This document shows, piece after piece, positions 3,001-28,767 of a DNA stretch of 39,053 bases. A program made the translations under genes and the position numbers. The notes below the pieces were generated by a model. The model ran no database searches. It was not told the origin of the DNA and was given only the letters and a program-made list of their open reading frames with translations. The number at the start of each line of letters is the position of its first letter. The stretch's first letter is position 1. The stretch is from a virus. The stretch covers positions 1 through 39,053 of the IMG/VR virus record IMGVR_UViG_3300020182_000079, one strand, 5' to 3'.

Positions 3001-5279
3001 AGCAGTTAGAGATTAAAGACCGCTACTCAGAAATTTCTGAAAATTTAAAATTTGAAGTTATGTTAATGGGGGGTTTGATGACAGATAAGCAAAAAGCTGA
3101 AAACAAATACCTTCAAGCAATAAACAAATCCGCAGAAGCTTATGAAAAATCCGCAGCTTCTGCAGATGCTCAATTGAGGACGGGGTTGCTAAATCAAATA
3201 AAAGGCGACCAGGGCGTTCAAGGTTTGGTAAAAACATCATTAGGTCTCAAAGAAGGCAGTAGCTTTCAGGATATTAGTGAACAAGTCGGCTCTCTCTCTG
3301 GAAAAGGTTTAGAGAATAAACTTAGAGAAATAGCGGATGAAGAAACTACAGAGCAGCCTATGCGTCAAGCCATACTTGAGTTACTCAGCTTTGAAGTCGA
3401 AAAAAGACAAAATATTTTAGATATCGCGGAAAAAACTAAAACGAACTCCACAGGTCAAGCAACTAGAGAGCGAGAGATTAATAATATACTCGCAGGTCGA
3501 TCTCAAATTATAAAAGATTTAGAAAGGAAAAATCGCATGTCTTCAGAGGCCCTTCAGTCTTCCCAGAAAATCCGAGGATTTACCGAACAAGTTGCCGCAG
3601 CAAAAAGGTTAAACGCTGTAGGTCCAGGATACCAGACCAACAGAGAAAGAGAGAATTTCGTAATTAACGAGAAAAGATTTGGCTTAGAATCTCAAATCAC
3701 AACCCTTAAAGAAAATCAGAAAAAATCTATAGGGGAGCAAGAGTTGGCTAAAACAAAAGTGGAAGATGTTGATCTTAAAAGGTTGAATCAATTAACTAGA
3801 ATTAAGGACGAAGGTTTTATCTCTAAGGAAGAATTTCGAGAGCTAGAAACCCTAGTCGCGGCAACCAAAGAAAGAGCTAAAAAACTAGAAGAAATCGAAC
3901 AAAAAATAAAAAACATAAACTCCGAAACGGACAGTGAAATAAATAAAGCAAAAACACTTTTAGAAAAAGAAAAAGAAAGATTAGAGATAAAAAGAAAACA
4001 CGAAACTGGACCTGGAGCATTTGGTAGGGGATTTAGGGACACCGCGAAAGAAATGGGGGACACTGTTGAAACCTTTAATCATAAGCTTGGTAATACTGTA
4101 GCTGTTAATTTTCGAGACGGAATAGCTGAAGCTATGAAAGTCGGACTAAATGGCGCTGATGATTTGGGTGATGCTTTGATGAATATTGCTGGCAATTTTT
4201 TAAGCGCTATTCAAGATGCATTTTTACAAAACGCCGCAAACGCAATAGTGTCAAAAATTCCGATGCCGAGTGGAAATTACACAGGTGGAGCTATACGTAA
4301 TTACAGTCGAGGAGGAGGAGTTCCTGCGATGGTTTCTGATGGCGAATACGTAATGAACAGCAAGGCTGTTAATAAGTATGGCGGATCTTTTATGCACGGA
4401 TTAAACGCAGGAGGAAATATTCCTGGGTTTAGTGAAGGAGGGGCCGCTCCAGGATCTGCACTTGCGGCAAATTTTGGCGGAGGAAGAGGCGTTGCATCTG
4501 GAAGGTCTTACCAATCGAAAGCGATGAGTGGATTCTTTTATTCTCAATCAGGAAACGTTGGCATTGGTGAAGATAAGGATTTATTACTCGGCGAACTTGC
4601 CGCAGAAGAAGAAGCGAGACGAGCTGCGGCCGCAAAGAAAGCAAAAAAGAAAGCTCTTTGGAGGCAATTGATAGGCACTGTCTTGAGCGCCGGCATAAGC
4701 TACGGGGTGAGCGGTGGTTTTAGTGGGGGCGGAGCGAGAATGGGCATGGGGAACGAGACTTTAAATAGAATGCCCGAGTCAGCTTTTAATTTCGATGGGA
4801 ACCCAGTGCTCGATGGAATGGCTACCCAACTCGGGAACCCTTATGGAAGGTATAATGGCGGCCCAATCCGCAAATACGCAAGTGGCGGTCACATAGCTGG
4901 AAAATCTGGCATCGACCAAATCCCAGCAATGCTCAGCGAGGGAGAATATGTGATTCGGTCGAGTAGCGCTCGTCAAATCGGAAAGCCAATGCTCGATCGA
5001 ATAAACGCAGGAAAATTTAATGACGGCGGTTCAGTTTCTCCTATAAACTCATCATCTGAATCAGCAACTTCCGGGGGAAGCACTAATAATATAAATATAT
5101 CCATCAACATGGGGGGCGAGAAGTTTAAAGGGGGATCTAACTCTGAAGACTCGAATCAAAACTCTGCCGATAAATCAAGCGAACATCAGAAATCTTTAAA
5201 ATTGGGAGAGAAGGTTAAGCAGCAGGTTATCTCCGTCATTGTTGAAGAGAAGCGCCCTGGTGGCCTTTTGGCTGGTTAG
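3..5279 (+). CDS. Phage tail tape measure protein (C-terminal part; 5' end cut by window)
   Basis: Sets tail length and lines the tail tube; counterpart of lambda gpH. The ATG at 3 is probably internal, because residues 30-75 already look like mid-protein tape-measure sequence (hydrophobic GPGLVVISAVFIKLF), so the gene likely starts left of the window. Order: residues 1-150 helical; 159-589 a region punctuated by GYIPNFA-type motifs (159, 241, 517, degenerate 581); 600-680 charged coiled coil; 700-770 Gly/Ala/Met-rich hydrophobic segment, typical of the membrane-inserting part of tape measures; 770-1400 long charged helices; 1430-1475 and 1625-1675 two copies of a Gly-rich module with VPAMVSDGEYVM and IPAMLSEGEYVIR. 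These paired GEYV modules are common at tape-measure C-termini. It is followed 2 nt later by minor tail genes. Residues 360-440 have a possible nuclease-like pattern (see findings). Confidence 0.9.
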   Translation: MEKVLNVFKGLAEGANEMLGGGESTGSDFAQGFLKGLGNIITGPGLVVISAVFIKLFAKALVYANQSLRSLIGVTSEAHKQKAIQTSLVTLFGQNAAISKEMLRTDISRTEKERIILGLLKAQVIEANMLNSVSKSVAGGLYTRGYNANLTPRKRGAEGYIPNFADPERAQAARGGYAAGTIRSMNMPGEGSVIYNSAEKVKNFKGMSQPAIMPPHSSKAGKNYQQAFGDVHGFDPYAAGGYIPNFAQTYNADSKMVLFSGSARDGGGYTGSDRKKNIIYINPSAKSGDKKFSATKKTGMKAVNVPYFTIGKDDKEREANDPKIKNKIQGDLIKQAQKTSNQLVNSLFKMPSIPSVITSSDVAVASGKIFEKIIMSVQKGVAKEAYGAEPPGNALLDIPRPGRDALWDLFGAGPLGSLGAEAKIALGSGGDAAHLKSAAEKFYKIDSLGKPEDMALKRAKAFAPAGKLNLSLTSDLAGSTKVQNELGAPTVRKAYSKFGKLSDAGKFDLLSRYKSYGHIPNFADPLSDAIGREKAAGVPVSQIRVGSHPALMGKSNPIGLGVTNTHDEPNGLRDVIGAANGFVPNYFNPIEKAKTAIGESGFGKNWKKATTERTKAIKIETDRIKSRTKAIEAHRQELTTLTQGTREHADVERKIRTTTQNLDKATQKKTALLNSPAPGVGGKMGRFSQGLGGAFSGNKGMMMMMGAPMAAGFLQSDGPGGAAYNAGGALTGAASGAIMASMAAPMFGPGAPLVIAMGGLLGGLKGYSDAQEENTKALKEAERERKRLVISSFAGADPKFMQKFSKNIFKDLSPEGKSVMKMAAPKFTATKPAEVSAKDIFTRGANNPIAKMGIPFFSPMFSPNEEERSQATKYREQMGQQSKFQKVQEFQTSSMKKALRSMGDQEFLLPNYEKDKSGKIQTKGGPELKKASEYLDNLEKIGFFEAKKVGDSERIEGLRSRLYEIYQADLVKEKDRSEGIIVQLDFQKAQMVAQQAAAVKQLEIKDRYSEISENLKFEVMLMGGLMTDKQKAENKYLQAINKSAEAYEKSAASADAQLRTGLLNQIKGDQGVQGLVKTSLGLKEGSSFQDISEQVGSLSGKGLENKLREIADEETTEQPMRQAILELLSFEVEKRQNILDIAEKTKTNSTGQATREREINNILAGRSQIIKDLERKNRMSSEALQSSQKIRGFTEQVAAAKRLNAVGPGYQTNRERENFVINEKRFGLESQITTLKENQKKSIGEQELAKTKVEDVDLKRLNQLTRIKDEGFISKEEFRELETLVAATKERAKKLEEIEQKIKNINSETDSEINKAKTLLEKEKERLEIKRKHETGPGAFGRGFRDTAKEMGDTVETFNHKLGNTVAVNFRDGIAEAMKVGLNGADDLGDALMNIAGNFLSAIQDAFLQNAANAIVSKIPMPSGNYTGGAIRNYSRGGGVPAMVSDGEYVMNSKAVNKYGGSFMHGLNAGGNIPGFSEGGAAPGSALAANFGGGRGVASGRSYQSKAMSGFFYSQSGNVGIGEDKDLLLGELAAEEEARRAAAAKKAKKKALWRQLIGTVLSAGISYGVSGGFSGGGARMGMGNETLNRMPESAFNFDGNPVLDGMATQLGNPYGRYNGGPIRKYASGGHIAGKSGIDQIPAMLSEGEYVIRSSSARQIGKPMLDRINAGKFNDGGSVSPINSSSESATSGGSTNNINISINMGGEKFKGGSNSEDSNQNSADKSSEHQKSLKLGEKVKQQVISVIVEEKRPGGLLAG
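477..1769 (+). repeat. GYIPNFA-type repeat motifs bounding cassettes in the tape measure
   Basis: Four short protein motifs occur in the tape-measure frame: GYIPNFADP (477-503), GYIPNFAQ (723-746), GHIPNFADP (1551-1577) and degenerate GFVPNYFNP (1743-1769). The stretch between the third and fourth has its own recognisable pattern (AAGVPVSQIRVGS... GLGVTNT..EP.GL). The motifs flank segments of very different length, which suggests modular cassettes. Seen directly in the sequence; function unknown. Confidence 0.7.
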
Positions 5280-5281
5280 TT

Positions 5282-6163
5282 ATGAGCTTTTCGAATTACG
5301 AGCAGAGTGTAATTATAAATGGTTATGCGCTATCTGGAGTACAGCAAGTAGCTGGCAATTATGGAATAAGCGAAAAACCTATTAAGGTGGCTGGTGTTGG
5401 TTTTATTGATGCATTAATAAATTCTCCCTTAGAGGGTAGTTTTTCTTTATCTAGGTCTATGGTTAGCAGTGACCCTCTGCTGGAATTAAATTCTCAAGGC
5501 AAGTATAAATACGACGAAGAGGAATTTGAGGGGGCTATACTCTACGAAAACCAAACAAAAGGCTTTGGCTTTACTCAAGGAAGGGTAACTAAATACTCTG
5601 TTGTTTGCTCTATTGGCGGTATACCAGAAATAGAAACGGAGTTTACTGTTTATGGAAATCTAGGTAGCGGGGTGTCTGTACAGGCTCCAACTAAAACTCA
5701 CCCCCCCATAAAGTATCCAGATCAGTCGAGTATGAGGGTTATTGTTAGTGATTTTTCGATAGACGCTATCACGGACTTTTCTTACAGCAGAAGCTTGAAC
5801 CTTCAATCTTTATATGCAATACCTAAAGGAACCTCTGAAGATTGGAATAATGGAACGCTATCTAGCCCCAACTTAAGTCCGGTACAAATAGACACTCAGT
5901 ACCCTATACAGACTGATATTAATTTTACGATGATAGCTGACGAATATGAAATTAGAGAAATTAAGGATAGAATTCAGTCGGCTCCAAAAAGTAGTGTAAT
6001 TATCGAAATTAGGGACGCTTTGAATCCCGATGATATAATAAATTCTTTTACAGGTCAAAGTATGAGGCTTATAAGTGAAAATATAACTTCCTCTACGGAG
6101 CAGGAAATGAGTATATCTTTGACGTATAAAGGGTATGAAACTCTACATAATCCAGTGTCATGA
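5282..6163 (+). CDS. Putative minor tail protein (tail tube-like / distal tail)
   Basis: A 293-aa beta-rich protein without signal peptide or membrane segment. Residues 10-60 have the pattern NGYALSGVQ..., KVAGVGFIDA, SPLEGSFSLSR, which reads like a tube or distal-tail beta-barrel repeat. It lies 2 nt after the tape measure and overlaps the next gene by the ATGA at 6160-6163, so the two are translationally coupled. Position between H-like and M-like genes supports a role at the tail tube/tip junction. It resembles its downstream neighbour in size and general beta pattern; the two may be diverged paralogues. Exact family not recognised. Confidence 0.6.
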   Translation: MSFSNYEQSVIINGYALSGVQQVAGNYGISEKPIKVAGVGFIDALINSPLEGSFSLSRSMVSSDPLLELNSQGKYKYDEEEFEGAILYENQTKGFGFTQGRVTKYSVVCSIGGIPEIETEFTVYGNLGSGVSVQAPTKTHPPIKYPDQSSMRVIVSDFSIDAITDFSYSRSLNLQSLYAIPKGTSEDWNNGTLSSPNLSPVQIDTQYPIQTDINFTMIADEYEIREIKDRIQSAPKSSVIIEIRDALNPDDIINSFTGQSMRLISENITSSTEQEMSISLTYKGYETLHNPVS

Positions 6164-7065
6164 GTAAGCCGTTTTTAAGGTTTGAGGACGGAAAGATATC
6201 TCTCGGAGGTAAGGATTTAATGGTTAGGTCTGCAAGCTTATCAATTTCTCCGCAGCTTAATCCAGAAAGGGTTTATGGAGATTTTGACGTTTCTATAGTC
6301 GGAGCGAAAACGGAGTTTATAAATTTCTCACCAAGCTCAAACCTCAAGGGGGAGTTGCAAATAAAGTTCTTTATTTCTGCCAGTACTTTCGCTGAAGAGG
6401 GCTCTTTAAACACTATAGATAGACTGTTTGAAATTAAGGAAGGTATGAGCGAAAATCCTGTAAATAGAAATATTGTGGGTAGATATTCTTTTGATAATAT
6501 GTTTCTTAAATCTTTTAGTTTTTCCCTCTCTCCATTTAGCGTTATTGAGGCTTCAGCAACTTATGATATTTATGGCACAATTTACAAAATAGCTGGAACC
6601 AGGTTTCAAAAATTAGATATGGATTTTGCTCACTCTTTGAAATCTTTTGGATCTATGAAGGCGAGCGGTTCGTCTGCGCCTTCTCAATTTGAAATAGCAT
6701 CCTTAAAGTATAATATAACTGTAAAGAGAGAAATGCATAATTCAATTAGATCCTCAGAGCACTCTTCCGTAGGTACTCACTCTAGTGGGGTCGTTCCTGC
6801 TAGAGTTTCTGTGCGGGAGATCGAGTCAGAAATGAATATAGAGTGTAATGAAATGATCTCTCATTTGAATCCATATGGGGATCAGCAATTAATTTCATCT
6901 CCTGAGGGTATTGAGAATTCGACTATTGAGGCCTTTTTATATGACATCCATGGGGTTAAAATTGCAAGATTTAAGACCTCAGGGAAAATTCATCAACAGT
7001 CTTATTCTATTGAGGAGTCTAAACAAGCTTCGGGCTCCATAACTATTAGGGAGGTTGTCAAGTAA
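6160..7065 (+). CDS. Putative minor tail protein, second of pair
   Basis: A 301-aa beta-rich protein that starts on the ATGA overlapping the previous stop and ends on a TAATG shared with the next gene. Features include FEDGKISLGGKDLMVRSASLSISP near the N-terminus, FSFSLSPFSVIEASATYDIYG around residues 125-150, and a C-terminal half containing IKRE-type beta strands. No catalytic motif or transmembrane segment is visible. The tight coupling and shared size with the upstream gene suggest the two proteins assemble together near the distal end of the tube. I do not recognise a precise family. Confidence 0.55.
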   Translation: MSKPFLRFEDGKISLGGKDLMVRSASLSISPQLNPERVYGDFDVSIVGAKTEFINFSPSSNLKGELQIKFFISASTFAEEGSLNTIDRLFEIKEGMSENPVNRNIVGRYSFDNMFLKSFSFSLSPFSVIEASATYDIYGTIYKIAGTRFQKLDMDFAHSLKSFGSMKASGSSAPSQFEIASLKYNITVKREMHNSIRSSEHSSVGTHSSGVVPARVSVREIESEMNIECNEMISHLNPYGDQQLISSPEGIENSTIEAFLYDIHGVKIARFKTSGKIHQQSYSIEESKQASGSITIREVVK

Positions 7066-9266
7066 TGCCTGGGGTTAAAAGCGTTTTTGATTCTGAGCAG
7101 TTATCTCACGTATCTAGTTATAGCGGCGTTTTTCAATCAGGGCAGAGTTATCAGAAGTTTGATTTTGCTTATAATAAAGGGGATGGTCTTTTTTATTATG
7201 CTAAAGAAAACATGTCCTTCGGCGGGGGCGCAACAATAGAAGAAAGTAATCGAATATCTTTGGTTCCTGACGGCCCTTTATCTAGTGATGGGGAGACTTA
7301 TTATATACTTGACACCTTTAATGACCCTTCTTCTATCGGAGCCTCTTTTGAGGATGGGCAGATAGTTTCTTTAAATGGAGCAAGCGACATTAATAGCAAT
7401 GGCTTGTATAGGATAGTAGAGATACAGAAAAATTTAACATCTTTAAACAATGACCCAAGTTTAACTGGGGCGGCAATTAATGTTGTGGGTATCGAGGGAT
7501 CTAGGATAACAAGTTTAGAGATCGCTGGCCCCAATCCAATAACCCTGTCTGAAGTAAATATAGCGCCCGAAGAAAGTGACGCTTTGTGGACCGCTGATAA
7601 TTTTTTCTTTGATGCTGATTATGGATCTTCTGTAAAATTTTCGTGCTCTAATCATAAGTTTGAATATGGTAATGGCTATTACATAAATCAAGCTAAAAAT
7701 ATTAATCCCATTTCTTTCGAGGTGGATCTTTCTTTTAAGAATAGAAGCAATAGGGAGTCTAATGCAATAATTCATTTCTTGGAAAATCACCAAGGACAGA
7801 GGGAAAAAGATTATTCGTCTCCCAACTTAACTTATAGTCAAGGAATTGCTGGGTTTTCGTGGGACGGCAGTTCTACATTTCACCCATACGACTCTCTTGA
7901 TAATCAAACTAAGTCATTTTATTGTAATGAATTTAGTCATTCCTTGAACTTTGAGAATAATAATGATATAAATGTTAAGTTGAGGAATTTTACAACCTCC
8001 ATACTTAATAAGTCTGAGGGCTTGTTCACTAGTAAGGCTGACACTTATAGTTCTTTAGATAGTTACGAGGAGAACGATGTGGTTTTTAATTTAAGTAATC
8101 AAAGATATTATTATTGTAAAAAAGAAAATGTAAACGTTCCCCCTGTCCAGGAGAATCTTGATTGGTCCAGAGCTGACGGCCTGTTTACTGATATTAATTT
8201 AGATTACTGGTCTAGGGAGTTTTTTTGGAAGCCTTCAATTGGGTTATCTGTAAGTCAACAACCCAGAGTATTGAAGCTCGGTCTTGGCGGGGGGTACACT
8301 CAGGTATACAAGGACGGGATCAACGAAAGCTTGTTGAGCTTTGACGTCAAGTTCGATAATCGGAGTGACGATGAGGTTTATGCTATACTTCACTTTTTGG
8401 AGCAGCATTACGGGTGTATACCTTTTATGTTTTCCCCTCCGGCTCCATATGAAACTCCTCAAAACTTTGTTTGTCAAGAATGGACTCATACTTATAACTT
8501 CAAGAATAATCATAGTATAACCGCGCGTTTTGAGCAGTTTCCTTTTGATTTTTCTGCGCAACAGTACGACAACCAATCCGCTCCCCCTCCGCCTCAATCT
8601 GCAGAATTGTATTTTAGTAATCCATTTGTAATGTCCGAGGAGAATGTCGGAGCTACTGTTTTTGAGGAAGACAAACTTAAAAAAAGGTTAAATTTAAAAA
8701 ATATTGGAGACTCGGATTTATTGATTAATTCAATAAAACTTGTATCTCTTGGTGATAGAATCTTCTCTAAGCTTGGTGGTGCTGGGGTTGTGGTTGCTTC
8801 TGGTTTAGATAGAAGTAGTTATACTTACTCGCTTCCTGTGGATAAAAATTTACCTTTTGATCTTGATGGTAGGACTATAAAAATTTCAAAGCATTGCTCC
8901 GATGGTCCAGGAGGAGGGCAGTCTTTTGTTTTAATGAAGCGGGAGGGTGGCCAGCTTGTTCCTGATGGGTTTGGGTTGGGTAATTATTATTTTCAAAACA
9001 ATAAGGGGCAGATCAAAACCGCTTCGTCGAGGTATGTGGACTGCGATTATTTCGTGGTCGAACAGTTCATTACAAACAATAGTCAATCTACGATTCCCGG
9101 CAAGGGGGAAGCGTATATCGATATAGAATCGTCTCCAAATGCATCTCCACTTGGCGATGTAGGTTTGAATTTCGGCAAGTACGGAGAGCATTTCGCTCAA
9201 ATAGAAATCAATAATAACGGAGCATTTCCCGTTTCTTTGGGAACAATTAAAATCTTCGTGGAATAA
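7065..9266 (+). CDS. Minor tail protein with two lambda gpM-like domains
   Basis: A 733-aa tail-tip protein. Two segments share one pattern: residues about 215-315 (FEVDLSFKNRSNRES.AIIHFLE...FYCNEFSHSLNFENNNDINVKLRNF) and about 420-490 (FDVKFDNRSDDEV.AILHFLE...FVCQEWTHTYNFKNNHSITARFEQF). This pattern (NRS, FLE..G, hydrophobic, C..(W/F)xHxxNF) fits phage minor tail protein M, which lies between H and L in lambda, as here. Lambda M is about 109 aa, so this is a duplicated and expanded version. Segments near residues 1-50 and 325-370 have the Y..ND.V.....YY pattern of small carbohydrate-binding-like modules. The C-terminal 200 residues look like an ASH/Ig sandwich (LNLKNIGDSDLLINSI). The start follows a clear GGGAGG at 7049-7054. 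Confidence 0.75.
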   Translation: MPGVKSVFDSEQLSHVSSYSGVFQSGQSYQKFDFAYNKGDGLFYYAKENMSFGGGATIEESNRISLVPDGPLSSDGETYYILDTFNDPSSIGASFEDGQIVSLNGASDINSNGLYRIVEIQKNLTSLNNDPSLTGAAINVVGIEGSRITSLEIAGPNPITLSEVNIAPEESDALWTADNFFFDADYGSSVKFSCSNHKFEYGNGYYINQAKNINPISFEVDLSFKNRSNRESNAIIHFLENHQGQREKDYSSPNLTYSQGIAGFSWDGSSTFHPYDSLDNQTKSFYCNEFSHSLNFENNNDINVKLRNFTTSILNKSEGLFTSKADTYSSLDSYEENDVVFNLSNQRYYYCKKENVNVPPVQENLDWSRADGLFTDINLDYWSREFFWKPSIGLSVSQQPRVLKLGLGGGYTQVYKDGINESLLSFDVKFDNRSDDEVYAILHFLEQHYGCIPFMFSPPAPYETPQNFVCQEWTHTYNFKNNHSITARFEQFPFDFSAQQYDNQSAPPPPQSAELYFSNPFVMSEENVGATVFEEDKLKKRLNLKNIGDSDLLINSIKLVSLGDRIFSKLGGAGVVVASGLDRSSYTYSLPVDKNLPFDLDGRTIKISKHCSDGPGGGQSFVLMKREGGQLVPDGFGLGNYYFQNNKGQIKTASSRYVDCDYFVVEQFITNNSQSTIPGKGEAYIDIESSPNASPLGDVGLNFGKYGEHFAQIEINNNGAFPVSLGTIKIFVE

Positions 9267-9272
9267 AATAAC

Positions 9273-10331
9273 ATGGGAACTTCAAGGGCAAAATTAAACA
9301 AGGAGTTATCATCTTTAACTCCCGACACTTTAGTAGATTTATATGAAATAGATTTTAGCAATCTTCAAGTAGATTTTGAGATGTTGGAGGATTTATATGG
9401 AGCTAATATAGGGGCCGAACCTGTTTATAGGTTTTGTCCCATGATAAACGGAACGAATCCGATAATCTGGCAAGGAAAGTCTTACCAACCTTTACCTGTT
9501 AGAATGGATGAGTTTGACCAAAAGGCTGACGGCACACTACCTAGACCTAAGATGGTTATAGCTAATCCTGATGGATTATTCTCTAAAATTGTGCATTCCA
9601 ACAAGGACTTTTCTAATTGTAAGGTTACGCGCAAACGGACGTATGCAAAATTTCTCGATGAAGATAATTTTCAAAACAGAAACTTAAATGATTCTGGATC
9701 TAACCCGTTTGGAACTTCTGATAGCGGTTCCCATTTGGCTGATGACGTATTTTTTATCAACAAAAAGAGTCTCGAGGGTAAGAATTTTATAGAGTTTGAG
9801 TTAGTTTCCTCTTTAGAGCTTGAAAATTCTCCGGTTCCTGCTAGAGTAGTCCTTTCTAGTAGTTGTGGGTGGACTTATAGGTGTAGTATAGGGTGCAGGT
9901 ATACAGGGTTACCTATTGAGACTTCTAGCAGCGAAGACTTAACTGACACGATTGACCCTTTAGCTTATCCAGATAAAACAAGTGATATTCCTGAGTGGAA
10001 TAGATATGGGAAGGGCGGAGAGAAGCTTGATCGAAAACTTTATAATTCTGGAGACTTAGTTAAAATAATTGCAAAGTCCTCGTCGGATCCCTATAGGAAG
10101 GTTCCTCAGGTTTTTGTGTGTGTGCGAAGCCATGCAGACGCCTCAAATCATCACCCGTTCTTTGATAAAGAGCATTGGTTGAGGGATGAATGCCCAAAGA
10201 CCCTATCGTCGTGCAGGAAAAGATTTAGCGGTAACAAGCTAACGCACCTTCACCCTTTCAACGGAGCGCAGAACTCCCCAGGCTTACCTTTTGGAGGGTT
10301 CCCGGGAACAGAAAGATACCCAGTTGAATAA
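9273..10331 (+). CDS. Minor tail protein L-like (tail tip, Fe-S type)
   Basis: A 352-aa counterpart of lambda gpL, which connects the tail tip hub and binds an iron-sulfur cluster in lambda. The C-terminal signature is clear: DECPKTLSSCRKRF (C307, C314) followed by PFGGFPG. A second cysteine group sits at C198, C204 and C208 (CGWTYRC.IGC), and C283 precedes the last pair, so the ligands needed for a cluster are present. The N-terminal part has YEIDFSNL and a TNPIIWQGKSYQPLPV segment usual for the family. The C-terminal insert between 215 and 270 is longer than in lambda (232 aa). The order M-L-K-I/J matches lambda. Confidence 0.88.
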   Translation: MGTSRAKLNKELSSLTPDTLVDLYEIDFSNLQVDFEMLEDLYGANIGAEPVYRFCPMINGTNPIIWQGKSYQPLPVRMDEFDQKADGTLPRPKMVIANPDGLFSKIVHSNKDFSNCKVTRKRTYAKFLDEDNFQNRNLNDSGSNPFGTSDSGSHLADDVFFINKKSLEGKNFIEFELVSSLELENSPVPARVVLSSSCGWTYRCSIGCRYTGLPIETSSSEDLTDTIDPLAYPDKTSDIPEWNRYGKGGEKLDRKLYNSGDLVKIIAKSSSDPYRKVPQVFVCVRSHADASNHHPFFDKEHWLRDECPKTLSSCRKRFSGNKLTHLHPFNGAQNSPGLPFGGFPGTERYPVE

Positions 10332-13600: not shown

Positions 13601-15418
13601 AGAACCTCTTCAGATAAAAGTGGTAGGGTTTTAGATGTTCAAATTAATAGAGAAAAAGTTTTATTGGACCGGGACGGAGAATTGTTTGTTTCGCAAACCG
13701 CAGAGTACTTCGATCCATATATATTGATCGACAAAAGCAACCTTTCTTCTCCGGGATCTAATGTGGTAGAATTGTCTGTTTATTGCGCGAGAAGTAATGA
13801 ATCTTTGGGGGATATAGAAAAAAGATCCTCTTTTGAATCTAGCGAAGAGGATCAGATGCAAGAGATAAACTCCTTAACATCTCCCCAACTTATTCGATTT
13901 GAAGGGTTTATGGGGACAGATCCATCTATTAATAAACTAGGTCCACAAGGCCAAAAAAGTATTGTTCAGGATTTGAAATTGAAGGTTGACTTTGAGATTT
14001 CCACTTCTGATAATTTAATTAAATCCTATGATCATGGGTTGGGCGACGGCGATACTTTGACGTTTTCTTCCGACGGCACCCTTCCGTCGGGATTAAGGAA
14101 TGACCTTTCTTATTACGTAGTTAACTCCACAAAACATACTTTTCAGGTTTCCGAGGTTTTCGGTGGTGGGGTTGTTAATATATTTTCTTTAGGAAGAGAT
14201 ATGTTTGGTAATGCTGGTGGGCATCATTATTTCATTATTTCGGATCGAGGAATGATTGTTGCGTCCTTAAATCAAATTGGAATTGGTTCGGTTTATTCAA
14301 TAAAAGGATTAATCGGATCAAGAAACGAGAGCTCTGTAATGACTGAGGGAGATAATGAGTTTATTGGCGTATTGAGAGAGTTGACTTTTCCTAATTGGTA
14401 TTTTTCTAATATATTTGGGTACATTTATTATAACCCAAGCGCTTCGTCGGATTGGATTTATGAATCTTTTTTAGGTTGGGTATACGTTGGAGAAATGAGG
14501 GGAAGGGTGATTGGTGACGGTGATGGTTTTTGGATGTATATAGGGGGAACAGAAGATTCAATCAAAGCAAGCGGTACTGTGGGTTGGGTATACACTCAAG
14601 AGCTTTTAAAAAATACTTTTTGGTATATTTATGATTTAAATAAGTGGGTATATTTATTGTATCAGGACGAAAGTTTACAAAATATAGCAGGGTTTTTTGT
14701 TTATGATTCCTTGACAGTATTGAATCGTGGGGATCGTTACAAGTTGGGATCTAATAGAGAAATGTTTATATCTATGGTTGTTGATGGGTTGGGTTATTAT
14801 TTGCTCGACAGGGTATCTACTAATTTGGGAGTATATACTGTCCCTTTAAACACTCCGCCTCCAGTATTCGGGCAAGGAAATAACCCTTTATATAGAGAAT
14901 TTGAGATAGATTTTATATATTCCGTGGGGTTTGAGGATAGCTTGCAGGGGGAAAGTTGTGTAAGGATTGATTTAATAGAGGGGCATGGACTCGACCTGAA
15001 TGGTTATTATAGCTTGTCTATCTATGGAGTGACCTCTAATATTAACGATTTTGACCAGTCGATTAATGCGGAGTGGCGCTTTACTAGGGTTGACGTTAAT
15101 ACTATTGAGTTGAACCGTAGTTCCGAATTGGCTGACACGCTTGGAAATATAATTTCAAATGGCAAAATATCTTTAACCTTGAATAATTCTTCGGTCACGG
15201 ATAGATTTTTGCAAGGACAGCTATTCAGGACCATATCAGTGAAAGAGGTCGCTAGTAACGAATATGAAGTTGTGGGGCTGGAATACAATTCTTCTAAATT
15301 TTTTGCGGCCGATCAGAAGGGTGTAGTTAGGACTCCCGCTCTTCCGATTCCTCCTCAAGCCGATATGTCTATACCGGAAGCTCCAGATGGCTTGTTATTA
15401 TTTGATTTAACTTTATAA
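10679..15418 (+). CDS. Tail tip hub: gpI-gpJ fusion (host-specificity protein J, N-terminal part)
   Basis: A 1579-aa protein. Residues 1-95 form a gpI-like beta-grasp domain (TVYLHGGLGKRFG..WELAVETPADVIKAI), followed by a hydrophobic segment at 97-130. From about 135 it reads as J: STRQAQGIAVPLGYGRLRVGG, IDLVCEGPIEGF, IYLNDVQV, then NPAWIFFDLLYNPRYGIGKYG (about 625-645) and the hub segment around 860-1000. Lambda encodes I and J separately, so this is a fusion. Residues 1110-1180 carry a GDGDTLTFS/LPSGL/YYVVN module seen in phage tips. Residues 1238-1335 are Trp/Tyr-rich repeats. The protein ends just as a new fibronectin-like strand begins (PEAPDGLLLFDLTL), and the next gene appears to continue it in another frame. 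AAGGAG at 10671 lies unusually close to the ATG. Confidence 0.88.
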   Translation: MKTVYLHGGLGKRFGSKWELAVETPADVIKAIDANSEGFCDYIQLRGIQGEFFSFLKKHPKRIKSQDELEGNLIPSNLVDIKYEETEVHIISNAYGGVVTTFFGGALLGKIASAVVWSAVTQLAMSVLFKPPKPPARGTPTTTKSYLMNGASTRQAQGIAVPLGYGRLRVGGANISNNLENIRLSRSTNAQSLESYSIVENIDLVCEGPIEGFVNKYGGAISGGDIREGIYLNDVQVKNTPSSSSENGTFNYILNELGDSTEGAPQFTSGSSQEKKPLSSKVFSKITLDTTLYGPGPYANPVPIVKTDPWDFSPPGTTFAGAASTPELAVEGGAKIVSHSVLNTDVDSVSFSFETQLQISNDNGSTSPNHVDFAILMVRSDGEYNVLGSDSECLVFQGKSDQVSENPSEKNKKIREEAVREIRANMNPRGLLSGLWLQVLSDDQLLDMFGVGVPPEDGDVSGLTYVDNGLAKIFRISGIATSAYSFDIKVVYQPKEGTSEMSSGVTFKVIKLSSEYDPSVKDGPTGGLHKMRSLKISTVVESISESLLYPNSAMIKTIIDSKNFSQSPNRTYHLKLKKVLIPSNYDPESRKYNGPWTGLFKGQSDPAQSVNEISEANKFWTDNPAWIFFDLLYNPRYGIGKYGLEESRIDKWQLYKIGKYCDELVETDFPVETATSKPRSFSYVAGTAVTNSKNFTITVDDPDLSTEDFTKEFGSGGSFLGKKLAMFLYQHNFGQDNVLSVSQQDSIRVKSINRDGEINIQERTILQSNPDLKTLTLVGSDLDGDPAFFNGGSQAARKVIGSCSTQINHAVVEPRFTANLFLTERSEALEIINSLASIFRGMVGYSGGKVSSTFDRKQNPVQLFNNSNVMSEGFRYIGVHKNKKITASLVRFNNKGKNFKPDVVYEEDSNSMQSLGYVEDETMGFGITSEGQARRLARWVLLTSQLETETVRFKTGQEGAYLLPGSIFEVSDESRTSSDKSGRVLDVQINREKVLLDRDGELFVSQTAEYFDPYILIDKSNLSSPGSNVVELSVYCARSNESLGDIEKRSSFESSEEDQMQEINSLTSPQLIRFEGFMGTDPSINKLGPQGQKSIVQDLKLKVDFEISTSDNLIKSYDHGLGDGDTLTFSSDGTLPSGLRNDLSYYVVNSTKHTFQVSEVFGGGVVNIFSLGRDMFGNAGGHHYFIISDRGMIVASLNQIGIGSVYSIKGLIGSRNESSVMTEGDNEFIGVLRELTFPNWYFSNIFGYIYYNPSASSDWIYESFLGWVYVGEMRGRVIGDGDGFWMYIGGTEDSIKASGTVGWVYTQELLKNTFWYIYDLNKWVYLLYQDESLQNIAGFFVYDSLTVLNRGDRYKLGSNREMFISMVVDGLGYYLLDRVSTNLGVYTVPLNTPPPVFGQGNNPLYREFEIDFIYSVGFEDSLQGESCVRIDLIEGHGLDLNGYYSLSIYGVTSNINDFDQSINAEWRFTRVDVNTIELNRSSELADTLGNIISNGKISLTLNNSSVTDRFLQGQLFRTISVKEVASNEYEVVGLEYNSSKFFAADQKGVVRTPALPIPPQADMSIPEAPDGLLLFDLTL
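14392..14680 (+). other. Trp/Tyr-rich repeat segment inside the J-like hub
   Basis: Within the J-like protein, residues about 1238-1335 carry repeated aromatic motifs: NWYFSNIFGYIYY, DWIYESFLGWVYVG, FWMYIGG, GTVGWVYT, FWYIYD and KWVYLL. This arrangement (W.F..FGY.Y, WIY..LGWVYV, FW.Y, GWVYT, W.YL) resembles aromatic C-terminal repeats I know from surface proteins of marine Verrucomicrobia and Lentisphaerae. The resemblance is from memory and untested. A shorter relative occurs in the gene at 21321. Confidence 0.55.
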
Positions 15419-21320: not shown

Positions 21321-22262
21321 GTGGCTACAATTATTAATAACACTACGTCTGGAGACGCCCAATTCGTTCTAGATCCTGACTTCTCTATTTATTCTAAAAA
21401 TTTTTCAGGAATAAGCGGAAAATACGCTAAGGTCGATAGTAGTGGCTGGATGAGTGATACTTGGTTTTTTGGGTTTAGTGAGTCTGCGGATAGAATGTTG
21501 GTTAATTGGTCTAATTATTTTTGGATAGGTACCTTTAGTATAGGGCTTCCTTTGTTAGGGAGTCAAAAATCTTACCATTTATTAGCTGGGGCGGTAGAAG
21601 TTATTGAAGGCTCTGCGGTAGTTAACTCTTATGAGGGTGTGGATGCAAACTTTATCGGCAAGATTTATCCGGGCACTGCCATAAGGTTTGACAACGACTC
21701 AAGCAAGGACTTTGTGGTCAGTAGTATTTTGCACGGAGAAAGTTCCCCTACGGGTAGCACGCAAATAATCTTAACAGAACCAGCTTCGTTCTCTAGCGTT
21801 AATTTTTCTAATATTTTTAAAGAAAGTTCGCCAGGTTTTGTTTTTTCGTCGCAATTGGGGTGGTTTTATATTCCTGAAGCTGGGGGCTCAAAGGGGGCGT
21901 GGTTCTGGTTCTCTTCTTCTTGCCCTGGCCTGCAAAAATATAAAAATTTTGCTGATGGAGTAATAACGACCGAAAATAAAGACGGCGCGATCGGTTGGGT
22001 TTTCTGCTCCCCTAACCTTGTTGAGACTAACTATCCCGCTTCGAAAGAGGGAGGTTTTAATCAAGGTTATGACGATACGAAAATAGTGCAAAACGGAGCA
22101 ACGTATGTGCAAGGAGACTGCGTTATTATTGCCACATTAATAAATGGGATTACATCTTACTACTCTATGGTTGCAAATAGTCGGCAAGAAGTTTTTGTAG
22201 CATTGTTTTATATAGTAGGCGCTGGTCATGTGGAAATAGTGTATAACCCTTTAGTAGTATAA
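21321..22262 (+). CDS. Fibre-tip protein in frame behind the giant fibre's TGA
   Basis: The frame runs 313 aa from a GTG at 21321, but no Shine-Dalgarno precedes it and it is in exactly the same frame as the giant fibre, with only TGA, TGT and CTT codons between. The first residues (TIINNTTSGD) look like the next GGxxN-type unit, so it may be reached by TGA readthrough or be the detached end of the fibre. The middle has beta-rich sequence. Residues 185-235 hold aromatic motifs (LGWFYIPEAGG, GAWFWFSS, GAIGWVFCS) like those of the J-like hub. No catalytic motif is visible. Likely part of the receptor-binding tip. Confidence 0.55.
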   Translation: MATIINNTTSGDAQFVLDPDFSIYSKNFSGISGKYAKVDSSGWMSDTWFFGFSESADRMLVNWSNYFWIGTFSIGLPLLGSQKSYHLLAGAVEVIEGSAVVNSYEGVDANFIGKIYPGTAIRFDNDSSKDFVVSSILHGESSPTGSTQIILTEPASFSSVNFSNIFKESSPGFVFSSQLGWFYIPEAGGSKGAWFWFSSSCPGLQKYKNFADGVITTENKDGAIGWVFCSPNLVETNYPASKEGGFNQGYDDTKIVQNGATYVQGDCVIIATLINGITSYYSMVANSRQEVFVALFYIVGAGHVEIVYNPLVV

Positions 22263-22263
22263 T

Positions 22264-22884
22264 ATGAATGTCTCCAACCCTCCGCCGGATTTAGTTAATA
22301 TATCGCCTCCGTCATCTTCGAGTTTTGGTGATGCTTGTTTTTTCTTGGGGGTTGAAGCTGGAAACTTGATAGTCGGTTCGTACTCGGCTAAAATTTCTTC
22401 CTCAAGAAGGTGCTCGTTGCTGAATTGTGGGCCCGCTTCATGGGACCCAAATATTAATGATTCATATAACACTCACCAAATTGGTAGATGGGGGGGTGGG
22501 TCTGTGTTTGGTGCATCTCACCAGCTTTACGTTTTTTCGAACTTATTACTTAAGGACACTGATGTCCAGGCATTTAGCTCTTCGGATATTAGACTAAAGA
22601 ACGACACTTCAGTATTAAGCGGTTCGTTGGACCAAGTTTTAAAAATGACTCCAGTGCAGTTCAAGTGGAAGAAGGGGCATCGCTTGTTATTAAAAGGTAA
22701 GGATATTGGGTTTATAGCTCAACAAATAGAACCTATTAATCCATACCTGGTCAAAACTAGAGAAAGCGGATATAAAGCTGTTGATTATAAAAAAATATCC
22801 GTATTAATTGTGTCTGCAATTAAGGAAAGGAATAGGCACTTGCAAAGAATAAAACTTAAAATTAAACTATTAAAGGATGGCTGA
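22264..22884 (+). CDS. Fibre-tip protein with Peptidase_S74 intramolecular chaperone domain (copy 1)
   Basis: 206 aa. Residues 103-206 match the intramolecular chaperone auto-processing (Peptidase_S74) domain: FSSSDIRLKND with the Ser107/Lys112 dyad, FKWKKG, DIGFIAQQIE, Y.AVDYKKISVLIVSAIKE and a C-terminal helix. In this family the domain trimerises a beta-helical fibre and then cuts itself off just before the serine. The N-terminal 100 residues are a short Cys- and Ser-rich beta segment, presumably the fibre piece that stays. The start is 1 nt after the previous stop, and the end overlaps the next gene by 8 nt. A paralogue follows immediately. Confidence 0.85.
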   Translation: MNVSNPPPDLVNISPPSSSSFGDACFFLGVEAGNLIVGSYSAKISSSRRCSLLNCGPASWDPNINDSYNTHQIGRWGGGSVFGASHQLYVFSNLLLKDTDVQAFSSSDIRLKNDTSVLSGSLDQVLKMTPVQFKWKKGHRLLLKGKDIGFIAQQIEPINPYLVKTRESGYKAVDYKKISVLIVSAIKERNRHLQRIKLKIKLLKDG

Positions 22885-23407
22885 CTCCAAAAATAACTCT
22901 ATCCTTGCGGGCACCCAAAACGAAATCGGTTTGGGTAGTCAATACTGCATGATTATCCAAGGATCAAATAACAATATACCTGCAAACAGTAATAATATCA
23001 CCATACTGGGGGACGGAGTAACTAATCCGGAGGATAATACGTTTTACGTAGCATGTGCAAATGGCCTACATTGCGCTGGAGATGTTGTGGCATTTAGCTC
23101 TTCAGACGAAAGGCTTAAGGAGGACGTTTCTGAAATGACGAACTGTCTTGATAAGGTTTTATCTCTTGATGCTATAAATTTTAAATGGAATGACAAGCAA
23201 TCTACTTACGAAGGTCGCGATATTGGACTTATTGCACAGCAGGTCGAAAAAATTGCTCCAGAGATAGTTGAAACCAGAAAGAGTGGGTACAAGGCGATTA
23301 AATATGAAAAAATAATACCTTTACTGGTTGGAGCTGTTCAAGAGCAGCAATTGGAAATTGACGATATCAACAAAGAGTTGGATTTGTTGCTGTCTAGTCA
23401 GAGTTGA
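22877..23407 (+). CDS. Fibre-tip protein with GGxxN repeats and Peptidase_S74 domain (copy 2)
   Basis: 176 aa. The N-terminus has GGxxN-type units (SILAGTQNEI, MIIQGSNNNI, ITILGDG) and a short neck (FYVACANGLHCAGDVVAF), then the S74 domain: SSSDERLKED with Ser76/Lys81, FKWND, DIGLIAQQVEK, GYKAIKYEKIIPLLVGAVQEQQ and a terminal coiled-coil-like helix. It is clearly paralogous to the preceding gene over the chaperone domain. The start codon sits inside the 3' end of that gene (8-nt overlap, AAAGGATGG). The 3' end overlaps the convergent minus-strand gene by 14 nt, with no terminator between. Confidence 0.88.
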   Translation: MADSKNNSILAGTQNEIGLGSQYCMIIQGSNNNIPANSNNITILGDGVTNPEDNTFYVACANGLHCAGDVVAFSSSDERLKEDVSEMTNCLDKVLSLDAINFKWNDKQSTYEGRDIGLIAQQVEKIAPEIVETRKSGYKAIKYEKIIPLLVGAVQEQQLEIDDINKELDLLLSSQS

Positions 23408-24197
23408 TAAGCTTCATTAATATCCTTGCGTCTGTAGGTGAAATGTCTGAGTATCCATTCCAGCTCTTTATGCTATCATTTTGATATTTTCCGCTCTTCC
23501 ACCAATCCCTGAGTACCATTTTGAATTCATCGAAGTTAGAACAGTTTAGTTTATCTTCTATCAACGATTCAACCATCGAGTGAGGGGTGAGGGATGGAGG
23601 AGAAACTGCGGAGTTCGTAGCTCTTCCCCCGGGATTGTTAGATTTGTCAATTTCATCATCCCCAACGATGTGAACGTTTAGAAAGTTGCGAACATTTCTA
23701 ACAAAAGCTCTATTGCAGGCTATTGTTTCTAGGAATTTTGTAGCAAAGCTGCTTGTGTTATCGAGCGTTGCATTAGCCATATCCTGAAATTCGACAGGAA
23801 TGTTTCCGGTTTCATAGTTTGGTAAAAATTTTATTCTACAGATCACTGCTACATGGTCAGATTGACACTTTACTACTTCGTACGAAACATCAGAGAAGCC
23901 TCTAAGTTTTGCAAGCTCTTTTATTCCGCTTAATTTTATGAGTAGTTGGTGGTCTCCCAGGCCTTTTATGGATCTGGGCATGTCTTTTTTTCTTAAATCG
24001 AACCAAGAGCGGTTTGGAAAGAGATGCTCATCTTTTATCATGGACCTCCAATTGACCGAGCCATCTTCTGCAAATTCGTAGTCTACGTTATTAAGTAAAC
24101 CAAGCTCGTTCCTTACGAATTTCGAGGGGCCGTCTTCATAATTTTTTATATGAGTTGTGTTTTTTTCTTTTCTTTCTGACTCTTTACTTTTTTCCAT
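23394..24197 (-). CDS. Conserved phage protein, possible recombination/ssDNA-annealing type
   Basis: A 267-aa protein with no signal or membrane segment. Central features are VNWRSMIKDEHLFPNRSWF (49-67), LLIKLSGIKELAKLRGF (85-101), YEVVKCQSDHVAVICRIKF (106-124), and a helix with ETIACNRAFVRNVRNFLNVHIVG (157-179). The combination of a GF..v.YEVV beta segment and an Arg-rich ACNRAFVRNVR helix is loosely reminiscent of Rad52/Sak-type annealing proteins, but I cannot confirm this. The C-terminal 50 residues form a separate helical piece. It is last in the minus-strand operon whose first gene is a putative ssDNA-binding protein, which fits a DNA role. The start overlaps the upstream gene's end by 14 nt. 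Confidence 0.5.
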   Translation of the reverse strand: MEKSKESERKEKNTTHIKNYEDGPSKFVRNELGLLNNVDYEFAEDGSVNWRSMIKDEHLFPNRSWFDLRKKDMPRSIKGLGDHQLLIKLSGIKELAKLRGFSDVSYEVVKCQSDHVAVICRIKFLPNYETGNIPVEFQDMANATLDNTSSFATKFLETIACNRAFVRNVRNFLNVHIVGDDEIDKSNNPGGRATNSAVSPPSLTPHSMVESLIEDKLNCSNFDEFKMVLRDWWKSGKYQNDSIKSWNGYSDISPTDARILMKLINSD

Positions 24198-25356
24198 GAT
24201 TGTAGTTGTTATAAATTTTTAAATTATTTAAATCTTCCCAGAATTCATCAGAATCAATTATTTTGTCGTGAGCTCCAGATATTCCAGCTCGCCATGCAGC
24301 TTTACTTGCGTATAGTTTTTTGTTTGATATGATGATTTGAGAACTTTTATAACGACTATTATTGCATAGTTCTTTGTAGTTGTCAAGATCTTTTTTTGTT
24401 TTATCTTCTATTAAGTGAACATCCCAGTCGAAGAATTTTAATCTTAAATCATTTATTGTGTCTTTATCTTTTGATATTATTTTTAAGCTGACCCCTAGCT
24501 TGCTTACTTCTTTTAAGAATAGTTCATCTCCATCAAGTTTTGCGTAGTAATTGATTTGATTAATGTTATGCTTTACTGTTTGTAAGTAATTTATCTTCAT
24601 GGGTCTATCCAGGAAGATGTTTACTTTTCTTTGGTTCGCCCATCTGGTTATATTCTCTTCGTCAAAATGTTCTTCGCCTCTAATATTTGCTGGCTGGTTT
24701 TGAGCAAAGCTTTCTGGCATTACGTGGTTTGGTATAACCGCTAGTGACCCTATGTGGTAATTATCTCCTATGTGTATTGTTTTTATATTTGATAAATTAT
24801 GTTTTATGTTTAATAGATCTAATACTGCAGTCGCAACGCTTTCTGGCTTTATCATGTTTATTGTTTTTGGATGCTCAATGTCGGAGAATGAGGCCCTGTT
24901 TCCTTTTTTGTCTGATTCGAGCAATATATGATCCAGGGGGTCTCCCCAGTACGGCCCGCTGCATTCTTTATATATGGTGCTATATAAGCTTACTATTTTT
25001 TTTCCAAAGCCCGAGGCTACATGAGTGCTGAACGAATCTGTTCCGAGGTGCAGTAGTGAATTTTTAATTATGTAGGCCGCCTGCTTAATTGATGTCTGAC
25101 CTTGGTGTTGGATGCAGTTGGATATACCAGCTTCTTCTTTTGATCCTATTTGTATTATCTTAATGCCCTCTTTTTCTAGGAATGTTTTAAGTAGGTCGGT
25201 TACGTCATTATAGTAATCGTAAGTTTTTGATTGTATTCTCGATGGAGCGTGAAGCGTAATGTATTTATTGGCGACCACAGGAAAGTAAGACGTCTCTATG
25301 AACGGCTTGTCTATTTTTACTCCACACGATAGGGCGTATTGTTCTACTAAGTGCAT
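24184..25356 (-). CDS. C-terminal half of a GT9 (heptosyltransferase-like) glycosyltransferase plus unknown domain
   Basis: 390 aa. Residues 1-185 are the C-terminal Rossmann domain of a GT9/ADP-heptose:LPS heptosyltransferase-like enzyme: YITLHAPSR, IIQIGS, TSIKQAAYIIKNS (88-100), GTDSFSTHVASGFGKKIVSLYS (105-126). The N-terminal Rossmann domain is absent here but is found at the end of the upstream gene, so the enzyme is divided. Residues 195-390 form an additional domain of unknown identity, with lysine-rich alternating alpha/beta sequence. The ATG overlaps the upstream stop by 10 nt, and no Shine-Dalgarno is evident at the junction. The two products may associate, or a frameshift may join them. 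Confidence 0.7.
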   Translation of the reverse strand: MHLVEQYALSCGVKIDKPFIETSYFPVVANKYITLHAPSRIQSKTYDYYNDVTDLLKTFLEKEGIKIIQIGSKEEAGISNCIQHQGQTSIKQAAYIIKNSLLHLGTDSFSTHVASGFGKKIVSLYSTIYKECSGPYWGDPLDHILLESDKKGNRASFSDIEHPKTINMIKPESVATAVLDLLNIKHNLSNIKTIHIGDNYHIGSLAVIPNHVMPESFAQNQPANIRGEEHFDEENITRWANQRKVNIFLDRPMKINYLQTVKHNINQINYYAKLDGDELFLKEVSKLGVSLKIISKDKDTINDLRLKFFDWDVHLIEDKTKKDLDNYKELCNNSRYKSSQIIISNKKLYASKAAWRAGISGAHDKIIDSDEFWEDLNNLKIYNNYNHGKK

Positions 25357-27254
25357 AGTTCGAATTGTATTTTATCTTTGGCGTTATGAGTGAAGTTTAT
25401 TATTCTTTGTGTTCCCACGAAGGGTATGAAGGCTATCTCGAAATAACCTTTATGCTCTCCTTGCCCCTCCATCAAGGGGAGGTTGGCTAGTGAGTCGTGG
25501 TACGGTATGCATTTATGAACATAGGGATTTCCATCTAGTACTTCGAAATATTTTGGTTGAGTTGCGAAATATATGTTTAACTCTGGGTATTGTTTTTTAA
25601 TATTTATTAAAAGCGAGGTCGTTAAGTATATATCCCCTATTCTTTCGGGCATGACAATGAGCAGCCTTCGACCTTCGTCGTCTTTATCGAGAATGTCCGA
25701 AAGTTCGATTTTTTTATTTTCTTTGTTTTCTTTTTTTGCCACGCTTCTAAAATACTCTAGTACTCCTTCTCTGTTCATGTCGCTATTCAACCTGGAGATC
25801 CAATGCTTGAGCCCTTCTTCTGTTTTACTTGTTTCTACTTTTAGTATGTTTTTGTAGATATCTATAAGCCAATCTTCGTCGCTATCTGTTTCTTGTGGAA
25901 TGTAGTTGGGGTTCCTGTCTTCAATCTTGAAGTCAAAGTCCCAGCACACACTTGGCATTTCGTCGATTATTTGCTCGAGCTGCTTTCCTATTACTTCTAC
26001 GCTATAGTTTTCCAGCACAAAGCTTCTGGCCGACTTTCCCATGCTCTCCCTTTTTTTTTCACTCATTGAATGAGCTTTTCTTAGTTGGTTGCATATGCTC
26101 TCTGGGCTAGTGCTGGCTTTTATAAATTGAGTTCCAGGTTCCCTATACTCTGTCCAGCTCAATGGTAGGCTGGCAGCTTCCTCTACGCAGCAGTCCTCTC
26201 CGCAGCTATAATTGGTAACTAGGGTTATTAATTCGCATAGCTTAGCTTCCTGGATTGGTATCTCCTGTCCTCCGCTCGTAAATGGGTGGCAATATGCATC
26301 CATTAGGTTATATATTTCGTTTAATTGATTCTCGCTTACTCCGCCCTTGGTGCTGGTCGTTACTTGCGATTTTTTAGACCCGCAAAGTTTACAATCTAGA
26401 TTTTCTCCAAGAAAGCTCTTAACTTCATATTCTCTACATTTTGTGCAGAAGTATGTAGTTAATATTTTTTTTGGATCTATTCCTTTTTCCTTTATTAATC
26501 TGGGTATATCCCAGCCCTCTGCCCAGTGGGTGTGTAGTAGTAATTTAGCTTCGGTTTCTGGGTTTTTTTTGCAAAACAATTTAAATCCCTCGAGTAGGTT
26601 TGGGACGCTTTTTCTGAGCTGGTTCCTGAATACAAAGCCAATGATGAAATCTTCGGTTCCGATAGAGTTTTTTTGTCTTAGCTCAAGCCTCTTTCTTTCT
26701 TCTAGCTTGTTGAAGGTAGATGTATCCAGGCTGCCCCTTAGAGTCTTGACGTGACGCTGCCCCATCTCGTTTAGTGATTTTTGGGCGAAGGATGCCCATG
26801 TGTAATAATTCTTAATCTTTGGCGCAGATTTTACTGCGTCTGGCAGAATAGGCAAGCTGTCCAGTGTAGTCCATATCATGCAGTTTATCTTGTTCCACCA
26901 ACTTTTTTCGGTGTAGCCAGAAAAAGCCCATATATCCTCTATCCCTATGTATACATCTGGCCTTTCTTTTTCTATTATTTTGTCGACAGTCTCACTTCCA
27001 TATCCTGCGCTCCTTGCCAAGCTTGGGTCTTGGTTTAATTTTTTAAGTAAGTTGGGGTCGTTAGGTAGGGAGCCTTCGCACTTCCATGGTAAGTTTTTTA
27101 AAGATGGGTCCCCCCATTTTTTTCCGTTGCAAAACTCTACTAAGTCATATTTGCCTGTTTTTTGCAAATATATAAGAATATTTTTAGAGTGCTTTCCGAA
27201 GCCTGTCAGGGCTTTGCAGAAATTGCTGTGGATCAGTACTTTTTTCTTTTTCAT
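25347..27254 (-). CDS. GT4 glycosyltransferase fused to DUF4214-like and N-terminal half of GT9
   Basis: 635 aa. Residues 1-435 are a GT4-type glycosyltransferase: KVLIHSNFCKALTGFGKHSKNI at the N-terminus, IIGFVFRN (204-211), and the C-terminal nucleotide-sugar site HPFTSGGQEIPIQEAKLCE (323-341). A CxxC...CxxC zinc-ribbon insert (C270, C273, C288, C291) splits the catalytic region. Residues 460-508 resemble DUF4214 (DWLIDIYKNILKVE..KTEEGLKHWISRL). From 529 it reads as the GT9 N-terminal Rossmann domain (LLIVMPERIGDIYLTTSLL, then GNPYVHKCIPYH) and stops where the next gene takes over. Its start overlaps the previous stop as TAATG. Likely builds a surface or virion glycan. Confidence 0.78.
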   Translation of the reverse strand: MKKKKVLIHSNFCKALTGFGKHSKNILIYLQKTGKYDLVEFCNGKKWGDPSLKNLPWKCEGSLPNDPNLLKKLNQDPSLARSAGYGSETVDKIIEKERPDVYIGIEDIWAFSGYTEKSWWNKINCMIWTTLDSLPILPDAVKSAPKIKNYYTWASFAQKSLNEMGQRHVKTLRGSLDTSTFNKLEERKRLELRQKNSIGTEDFIIGFVFRNQLRKSVPNLLEGFKLFCKKNPETEAKLLLHTHWAEGWDIPRLIKEKGIDPKKILTTYFCTKCREYEVKSFLGENLDCKLCGSKKSQVTTSTKGGVSENQLNEIYNLMDAYCHPFTSGGQEIPIQEAKLCELITLVTNYSCGEDCCVEEAASLPLSWTEYREPGTQFIKASTSPESICNQLRKAHSMSEKKRESMGKSARSFVLENYSVEVIGKQLEQIIDEMPSVCWDFDFKIEDRNPNYIPQETDSDEDWLIDIYKNILKVETSKTEEGLKHWISRLNSDMNREGVLEYFRSVAKKENKENKKIELSDILDKDDEGRRLLIVMPERIGDIYLTTSLLINIKKQYPELNIYFATQPKYFEVLDGNPYVHKCIPYHDSLANLPLMEGQGEHKGYFEIAFIPFVGTQRIINFTHNAKDKIQFELCT

Positions 27255-27832: not shown

Positions 27833-27854
27833 CTTTTGTAAGTTCGTTATTTAT

Positions 27855-27880
27855 TGTATGTAGGCTTATGCATACATACA
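27855..27880. promoter_or_regulatory. 8-bp inverted repeat, likely operator
   Basis: The arms TGTATGTA (27855-27862) and TACATACA (27873-27880) are exact reverse complements separated by 10 bp. The repeat overlaps the predicted transcription start (about 27875) of the minus-strand promoter at 27882-27909, the classic place for a repressor site. It could also form a 5' hairpin in the mRNA leader. The small DNA-binding protein encoded at 31254-31565 is a possible ligand, purely by inference. Confidence 0.55.
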
Positions 27881-27881
27881 G

Positions 27882-28754: not shown

Positions 28755-28767
28755 TTATTAGAGTTTT

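Follow-up and report, generated by a model that had tools for sequence, protein, structure and literature searches.

A segment rich in tryptophan and tyrosine in the gpJ-like tail-tip hub protein (J) of a phage is, judged from profile comparison and predicted strands, homologous to a module that exported proteins of marine Opitutales carry mostly at the C-terminus, the two being members of the same domain family in different architectures. The stretch of DNA that was analyzed, a virus record of 39,053 nucleotides, is called the window here. With moderate confidence, we regard the whole as best explained by a homologous module that would serve surface retention in the bacterium and adsorption in the phage, via the same kind of ligand. 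The domain family common to the surface proteins of the host and the tail tip of the phage clade is apparently undescribed.

Tail cluster of the window and the module of its hub protein

A lambda-like tail cluster, with fibre genes after it, lies on the plus strand of the window (Table 1). The hub core and the order of the genes, i.e., tape measure, minor tail proteins, J, and fibres, are alike in this cluster and in phages with lambda gpJ-type proteins (PF13550, phrog_31). J matched PF13550 at E 6e-16, phrog_31 ("central tail fiber J") at E 9e-108, and NF049904 (lambda_TipJ) at E 2e-50, the last of these lying under the model's full-length cut-off. The best J records of isolate phages align to residues 1-1017 of the window J only, and the module has no convincing match there.

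Table 1. Tail genes and module copies of the window (positions in the window)
Feature	Position	Strand	Evidence or remark
Tape measure	3-5279	+	
Two tail proteins	5282-7065	+	
phrog_14 minor tail protein	7065-9266	+	phrog_14, E 5e-29
phrog_18 protein	9273-10331	+	short ORF between it and J
gpJ-like tail-tip hub/host-specificity protein (J), 1579 aa	10679-15418	+	PF13550, phrog_31, NF049904
W/Y hairpin module, J residues 1238-1344	14390-14710	+	bacterial-only HMM, hhalign, AF2
Loop extension (EDSIKASGT) in third hairpin of J module	14552-14578	+	alignment A5; AF2
Tail fibre protein after J, 1962 aa	15426-21314	+	CBM_5_12 (PF02839), E 3e-6, just above the curated cut-off
Distal tail protein with second, divergent module copy, 313 aa	21321-22262	+	profile match; module-bearing homolog in L159
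Second W/Y module (FVFSSQLGWFYIPEAGG...AWFWF...AIGWVF)	21792-22022	+	HMM profiles

The initial annotation had described Trp/Tyr repeats at residues 1238-1335 of J, and the segment is present there in the ORF (PNWYFSNIFGYIYYNPSASSDWIYESFLGWVYVGEMRGRVIGDGDGFWMYIGGTEDSIKASGTVGWVYTQELLKNTFWYIYDLNKWVYLLYQDESLQN); the nucleotide bounds given with it, 14392-14680, are 2-3 bases off, the true ones being 14390-14683. The module extends somewhat farther, to about residue 1344 (IAGFFVYDS). Tryptophan, tyrosine, and phenylalanine together account for 24% of the 98-residue segment, vs. 10% of the whole J protein, and 7 of the 17 tryptophans of J fall inside it; 7 tryptophans in any 98-residue stretch of J were seen in 0.2% of 5,000 permutations. 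An AF2 model of the module (pLDDT 79.9, pTM 0.74) consists chiefly of beta hairpins, and residues 1238-1344 are thus predicted to form a compact folded module of four W/Y-rich beta-hairpins with a closing strand. According to the AF2 models and the alignment, each hairpin runs roughly aromatic-W-x-aromatic, turn, G-W-x-aromatic. The third hairpin contains the loop EDSIKASGT, at which AF2 puts a short helix and which, in alignment A5, is otherwise present only in the three J proteins nearest to that of the window (L158, L159, and L164).

Only J and the distal tail protein passed the profile inclusion threshold among the ORFs of the window. The second copy was detected at an i-E of 3.9e-4 with the combined HMM and at E 4.9e-6 with profile A5, and it scored 14.3 bits with the bacterial HMM vs. 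a maximum of 10.9 for shuffled sequences. No module was detected in the phrog_14 protein of the window, and a homolog of the 1962-aa fibre protein in the related locus L168 gave a weak module match.

Several other genes of the window were recorded. Two consecutive ORFs (22264-22884 and 22877-23407) each contain a Peptidase_S74 chaperone of endosialidase domain. A glycan-related block on the minus strand (24184-31257) encodes glycosyltransferases of families 1 and 9 and HAD/nucleotidyltransferase-like proteins. An 861-aa ORF at 36389-38974 matches phrog_15433, named tail sheath, at E 1e-53; the cluster is otherwise lambda/siphovirus-like, and the family name may be wrong.

The J module gave nothing above the cut-off in Pfam or NCBIfam, its best E values being 0.07 in PHROGs and 0.093 by sequence against solved structures. 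Foldseek searches of PDB and BFVD returned no module match at E<=0.001, and a VIA-align fold search with the module reached Z values of at most 3.5, with no fold match indicating a ligand. Four module queries against 50,697 isolate phage records gave nothing but one match at E 0.9, to cyanophage S-TIM5/S-TIM61, which was judged to be due to chance, as the protein lacks the GW-aromatic motif. No description of such a module in Verrucomicrobia was found in the open-access literature.

Relation to exported proteins of marine Opitutales

The initial annotation had likened the repeats to the C-termini of surface or secreted proteins of marine Verrucomicrobia and Lentisphaerae. From the WIY...LGW of the window and the bacterial module, the motif W-I-Y-H-x-x-(L/H)-G-W was derived and used as a DNA pattern to scan 84,980 species genomes. 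On reading the translations of the 80 loci listed, true modules were recognized in at least 61; the other 19, mostly archaeal ATPase genes, were chance matches and were dropped. Of these 61 loci among the matches listed, 54 are labeled Verrucomicrobiota (mostly Opitutales/Opitutia) and 7 are Deltaproteobacteria/Syntrophobacteraceae MAGs. The suggested origin held for Verrucomicrobia, and none of the matches listed came from Lentisphaerae; nor were matches confined to unrelated phages or to another host group. In viral contigs, the same motif recovered true relatives among chance matches.

With a profile built from 23 copies (A3; 21 bacterial and two from viral contigs), 43 of the 132 genomes searched in one Opitutales order proved to carry the module, with up to 38 copies per genome. 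In a deltaproteobacterial phylum, only the centre genome of 118 was positive, and none of 299 genomes was positive in the phylum of a gammaproteobacterial MAG. Bacterial profiles were used here because a phage-only profile (A4) matches just one of 288 Verrucomicrobiota-phylum genomes at 1e-5.

The bacterial copies are located mostly at the ends of proteins: no more than 95 aa separate the WIYH motif from the stop in 44 of the 61 copies whose C-terminus is complete, and a minority of copies are internal. The carriers include a phosphoesterase, a papain protease with an Ig domain, and a cyclophilin with FKBP and cadherin domains, as well as proteins with BspA-like DUF285, InlB-like repeats, or YHYH domains. 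A signal-like N-terminus was recognized in 23 of 63 carriers by a crude test, many of the ORFs being cut or uncertain in their start. The module is a domain, for the most part C-terminal, of proteins exported by marine Verrucomicrobia.

Profile searches showed homology between the phage and bacterial modules. An HMM built from 63 bacterial copies only gave the J segment 25.2 bits, whereas none of 2,000 shuffles exceeded 11.6 bits and the reversed sequence scored 0.5, and hhalign aligned the phage profile to the bacterial profile with a probability of 98.9. An AF2 model of a bacterial module (pLDDT 91.2, pTM 0.81) and that of the J module have nine predicted strands in the same order, which correspond one to one in the alignment. 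The Opitutales pattern (alignments A3/A6), W..S.WFG.(F/Y)...WIYH..LGW(L/V)Y...WFYD..GW.WT...YPYLY.....W.Y, can be followed in J, in which residues W1240, G1247, W1259, G1266-W1267, W1285, G1302-W1303, and W1323 align with conserved bacterial positions. The phage copy differs from the Opitutales module in being internal to a hub protein, in the loop extension of its third hairpin, and in having Glu (WIYE) in place of the His of WIYH; this His is fixed in the bacterial set by the search motif itself, and WIYH is kept in some phrog_14 copies of related phages.

Phage and bacterial copies share a pairwise identity of only ~25-41%, a level at which convergence or a mere W/Y-rich compositional bias might be thought to account for the likeness. 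We consider this very improbable: the shuffled and reversed controls fail, the order, spacing, and strands of the modules agree over ~95 residues, and a bridging phage copy (L163) scores equally well against bacterial copies (58.5 bits, 41% identity) and other J copies (57.0 bits). Homology of the J module to the Opitutales surface module is therefore taken as shown.

Recurrence and evolution in related phages

A search of viral contigs with J yielded 39 related loci. About 17 metagenomic relatives with a long enough J carry the module at the same site, where the sequence is variable and which has the hub core on one side and a conserved C-terminal motif (LFRTISVKEVASNEYEVVGLEYNSSKF in the window) on the other. 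Because the J proteins of some relatives (L170, L174, L175, and L195) lack the module and have other sequence at that site, the module is dispensable for the hub. It also occurs in the N-terminal third of about ten phrog_14 homologs (L026, L162, L165, L166, L176, L180, L181, L183, L185, and L186). The record that contains L170, a 211-kb relative with a module-free J, encodes an 838-aa protein that has at least three copies joined by Gly/Ser-rich linkers (L213:91-2604, plus strand).

In a tree of 52 modules, the J copies form one clade (98/95) and the phrog_14 copies another (97/84), although the tree rests on few columns, and the use of a single motif to gather its bacterial rows makes these cluster more than they otherwise would. 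As the two kinds of copy form separate clades, the module was probably taken up once per tail position, early in the phage clade. The claim of the initial annotation that this phage had acquired the module is in this respect too narrow, the module looking ancestral to the clade.

Some phages also encode exported proteins with copies of the bacterial type. In the 211-kb relative, a 236-aa lipoprotein with a lipobox-like LLAGSC ends in such a module (L208:1486-2193, minus strand) and is possibly a host-surface or superinfection protein. A 122-kb relative has an exported HExxH-like protein (HEMAH) with a bacterial-type module (L220:9131-10489, plus strand), whose gene has a tail-fibre gene on one side and that of the large terminase on the other; the protein had no match in Pfam or PHROGs. 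A different phage (L022) encodes, next to an integrase gene, an exported PQQ/cadherin-like protein of 626 aa whose C-terminus is formed by a module of the bacterial type (4773-6653, minus strand). Scored against bacterial copies, those in these exported proteins reach 74-91 bits, as compared with 42-52 bits against J copies, and they fall among the bacterial rows of the tree at separate places.

The way in which the module varies bears on whether it has a receptor role at all. It could be a structural spacer or a tip decoration, the W/Y hairpins being just a stable small domain, and the existence of relatives without it would be in keeping with this. So would the pattern among the near-identical J genes of L158, L159, and L164, in which the module has a pN/pS of ~0.33 (0.03/0.09 per site), no sign of the positive selection expected of an arms race. 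We nevertheless regard this explanation as decidedly unlikely, since three or more distinct tail proteins contain the module, the bacterial members of its family are associated with exported proteins, and the module has changed more quickly than the hub core: identity to the window averages 0.18-0.24 across the module part but 0.5-0.58 across the best blocks of the hub core.

In two of the three pairs of these near-identical genes, differences at nonsynonymous sites are 7-18 times higher in the module than in residues 1-1195, and synonymous change in the module is raised too; the divergence may be such as recombination at the tip would give. A diversity-generating retroelement was weighed, given that L158, L159, and L164 are less alike in the module than in the core. 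Neither the window nor the L002-L004 records, which may be fragments, yielded an RVT_1 reverse transcriptase; the spread of the substitutions in the module over all codon positions and bases, together with the pN/pS of ~0.33, argues against such an element.

Proposed role of the module and probable host of the phage

Because the module recurs at the C-termini of exported proteins that have little else in common, it most probably serves in the bacterium to hold them on the cell surface by binding a glycan of the envelope or capsule. The phage module, placed at an insertion site of the tail-tip hub and with further copies in the phrog_14 protein of relatives and in the distal fibre, would most probably bind the same kind of surface ligand and thereby aid adsorption, so that the phage receptor would be the feature by which the host retains its own proteins. 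The J module is therefore proposed as a surface-ligand (probably glycan) binding unit of the tail tip, with an ancestry, and probably a ligand, in common with the host module. We infer ligand binding, the sharing of a ligand by host and phage, and a host in Verrucomicrobiota from homology and context.

Choline-binding or cell-wall-binding repeats (PF01473) are common to pneumococcal surface proteins and phage lysins; they are aromatic beta-hairpin units by which host proteins are fixed to the envelope, and phages have put them to use as well. By analogy with such aromatic hairpin repeats, which bind envelope glycopolymers, a glycan seems the likelier ligand of the module. The W/Y module differs in being part of a tail tip, whereas phages have those repeats in lysins, and searches of Pfam, PF01473 included, gave no match for the J segment at E<=5 or for 23 bacterial members at E<=1.

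The ligand might instead be a protein. The module would then dock exported proteins to a surface or secretion protein, in the manner of the C-terminal domain of type IX substrates, and the phage tip would bind the same partner. A C-terminal place on many unrelated exported proteins, like that of a sorting signal, and the high copy number per genome fit this idea. On the other hand, the module of J is internal, with ~235 aa following it, the phrog_14 copies lie in the N-terminal third of their proteins, and a minority even of the bacterial copies are internal, none of which resembles a processed C-terminal signal. We therefore rate protein docking as unlikely, and binding of a surface glycan remains the preferred reading.

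Regarding the host, we are fairly confident that the phage of the window infects a member of Verrucomicrobiota. The taxonomic bias of the module agrees with the suggestion of the initial annotation that it points to the host group; the assignment is nevertheless unproven, as tail genes of the phage clade, J included, were found in none of 288 Verrucomicrobiota-phylum genomes or 372 genomes of the Opitutales order. The J of one genome of the order (G1029), considered as a prophage link, turned out to be merely a distant J without the module. P8625 is an isolate phage of marine Verrucomicrobia (PMC4642752); in it, the only isolate verrucophage examined, neither the module nor related tail genes were found. 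The 211-kb relative encodes a tmRNA with the tag ANNIVRFEDFTACGEELALAA (L218:15017-15392, minus strand), and module-rich genomes of the Opitutales order have long tmRNA tags of similar start, e.g., GENNIVNFEPEFEALAA, a likeness that is no more than suggestive. The host could also be a deltaproteobacterium, because the module is found in a few Deltaproteobacteria as well.

Tentatively, these phages might be seen as an undescribed marine family that has built its tail tip (J, minor tail protein, and distal fibre) from a surface-attachment module of the host phylum and that encodes exported host-type copies as well. Marine Verrucomicrobia are important polysaccharide degraders, and if the proposal is right, the profile would give a handle on how many of their exported proteins are attached. 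It would also allow uncultured phages to be linked by sequence to a Verrucomicrobia host group, and it would provide a receptor-binding module that is testable as a purified protein. One abundant ligand would then be both the anchor for much of the surface proteome of the host and the receptor of the phage, and thus hard to lose. An anchor ligand of many host proteins would be costly to change, so that these phages may offer a clear-cut example of receptor choice that is open to testing.
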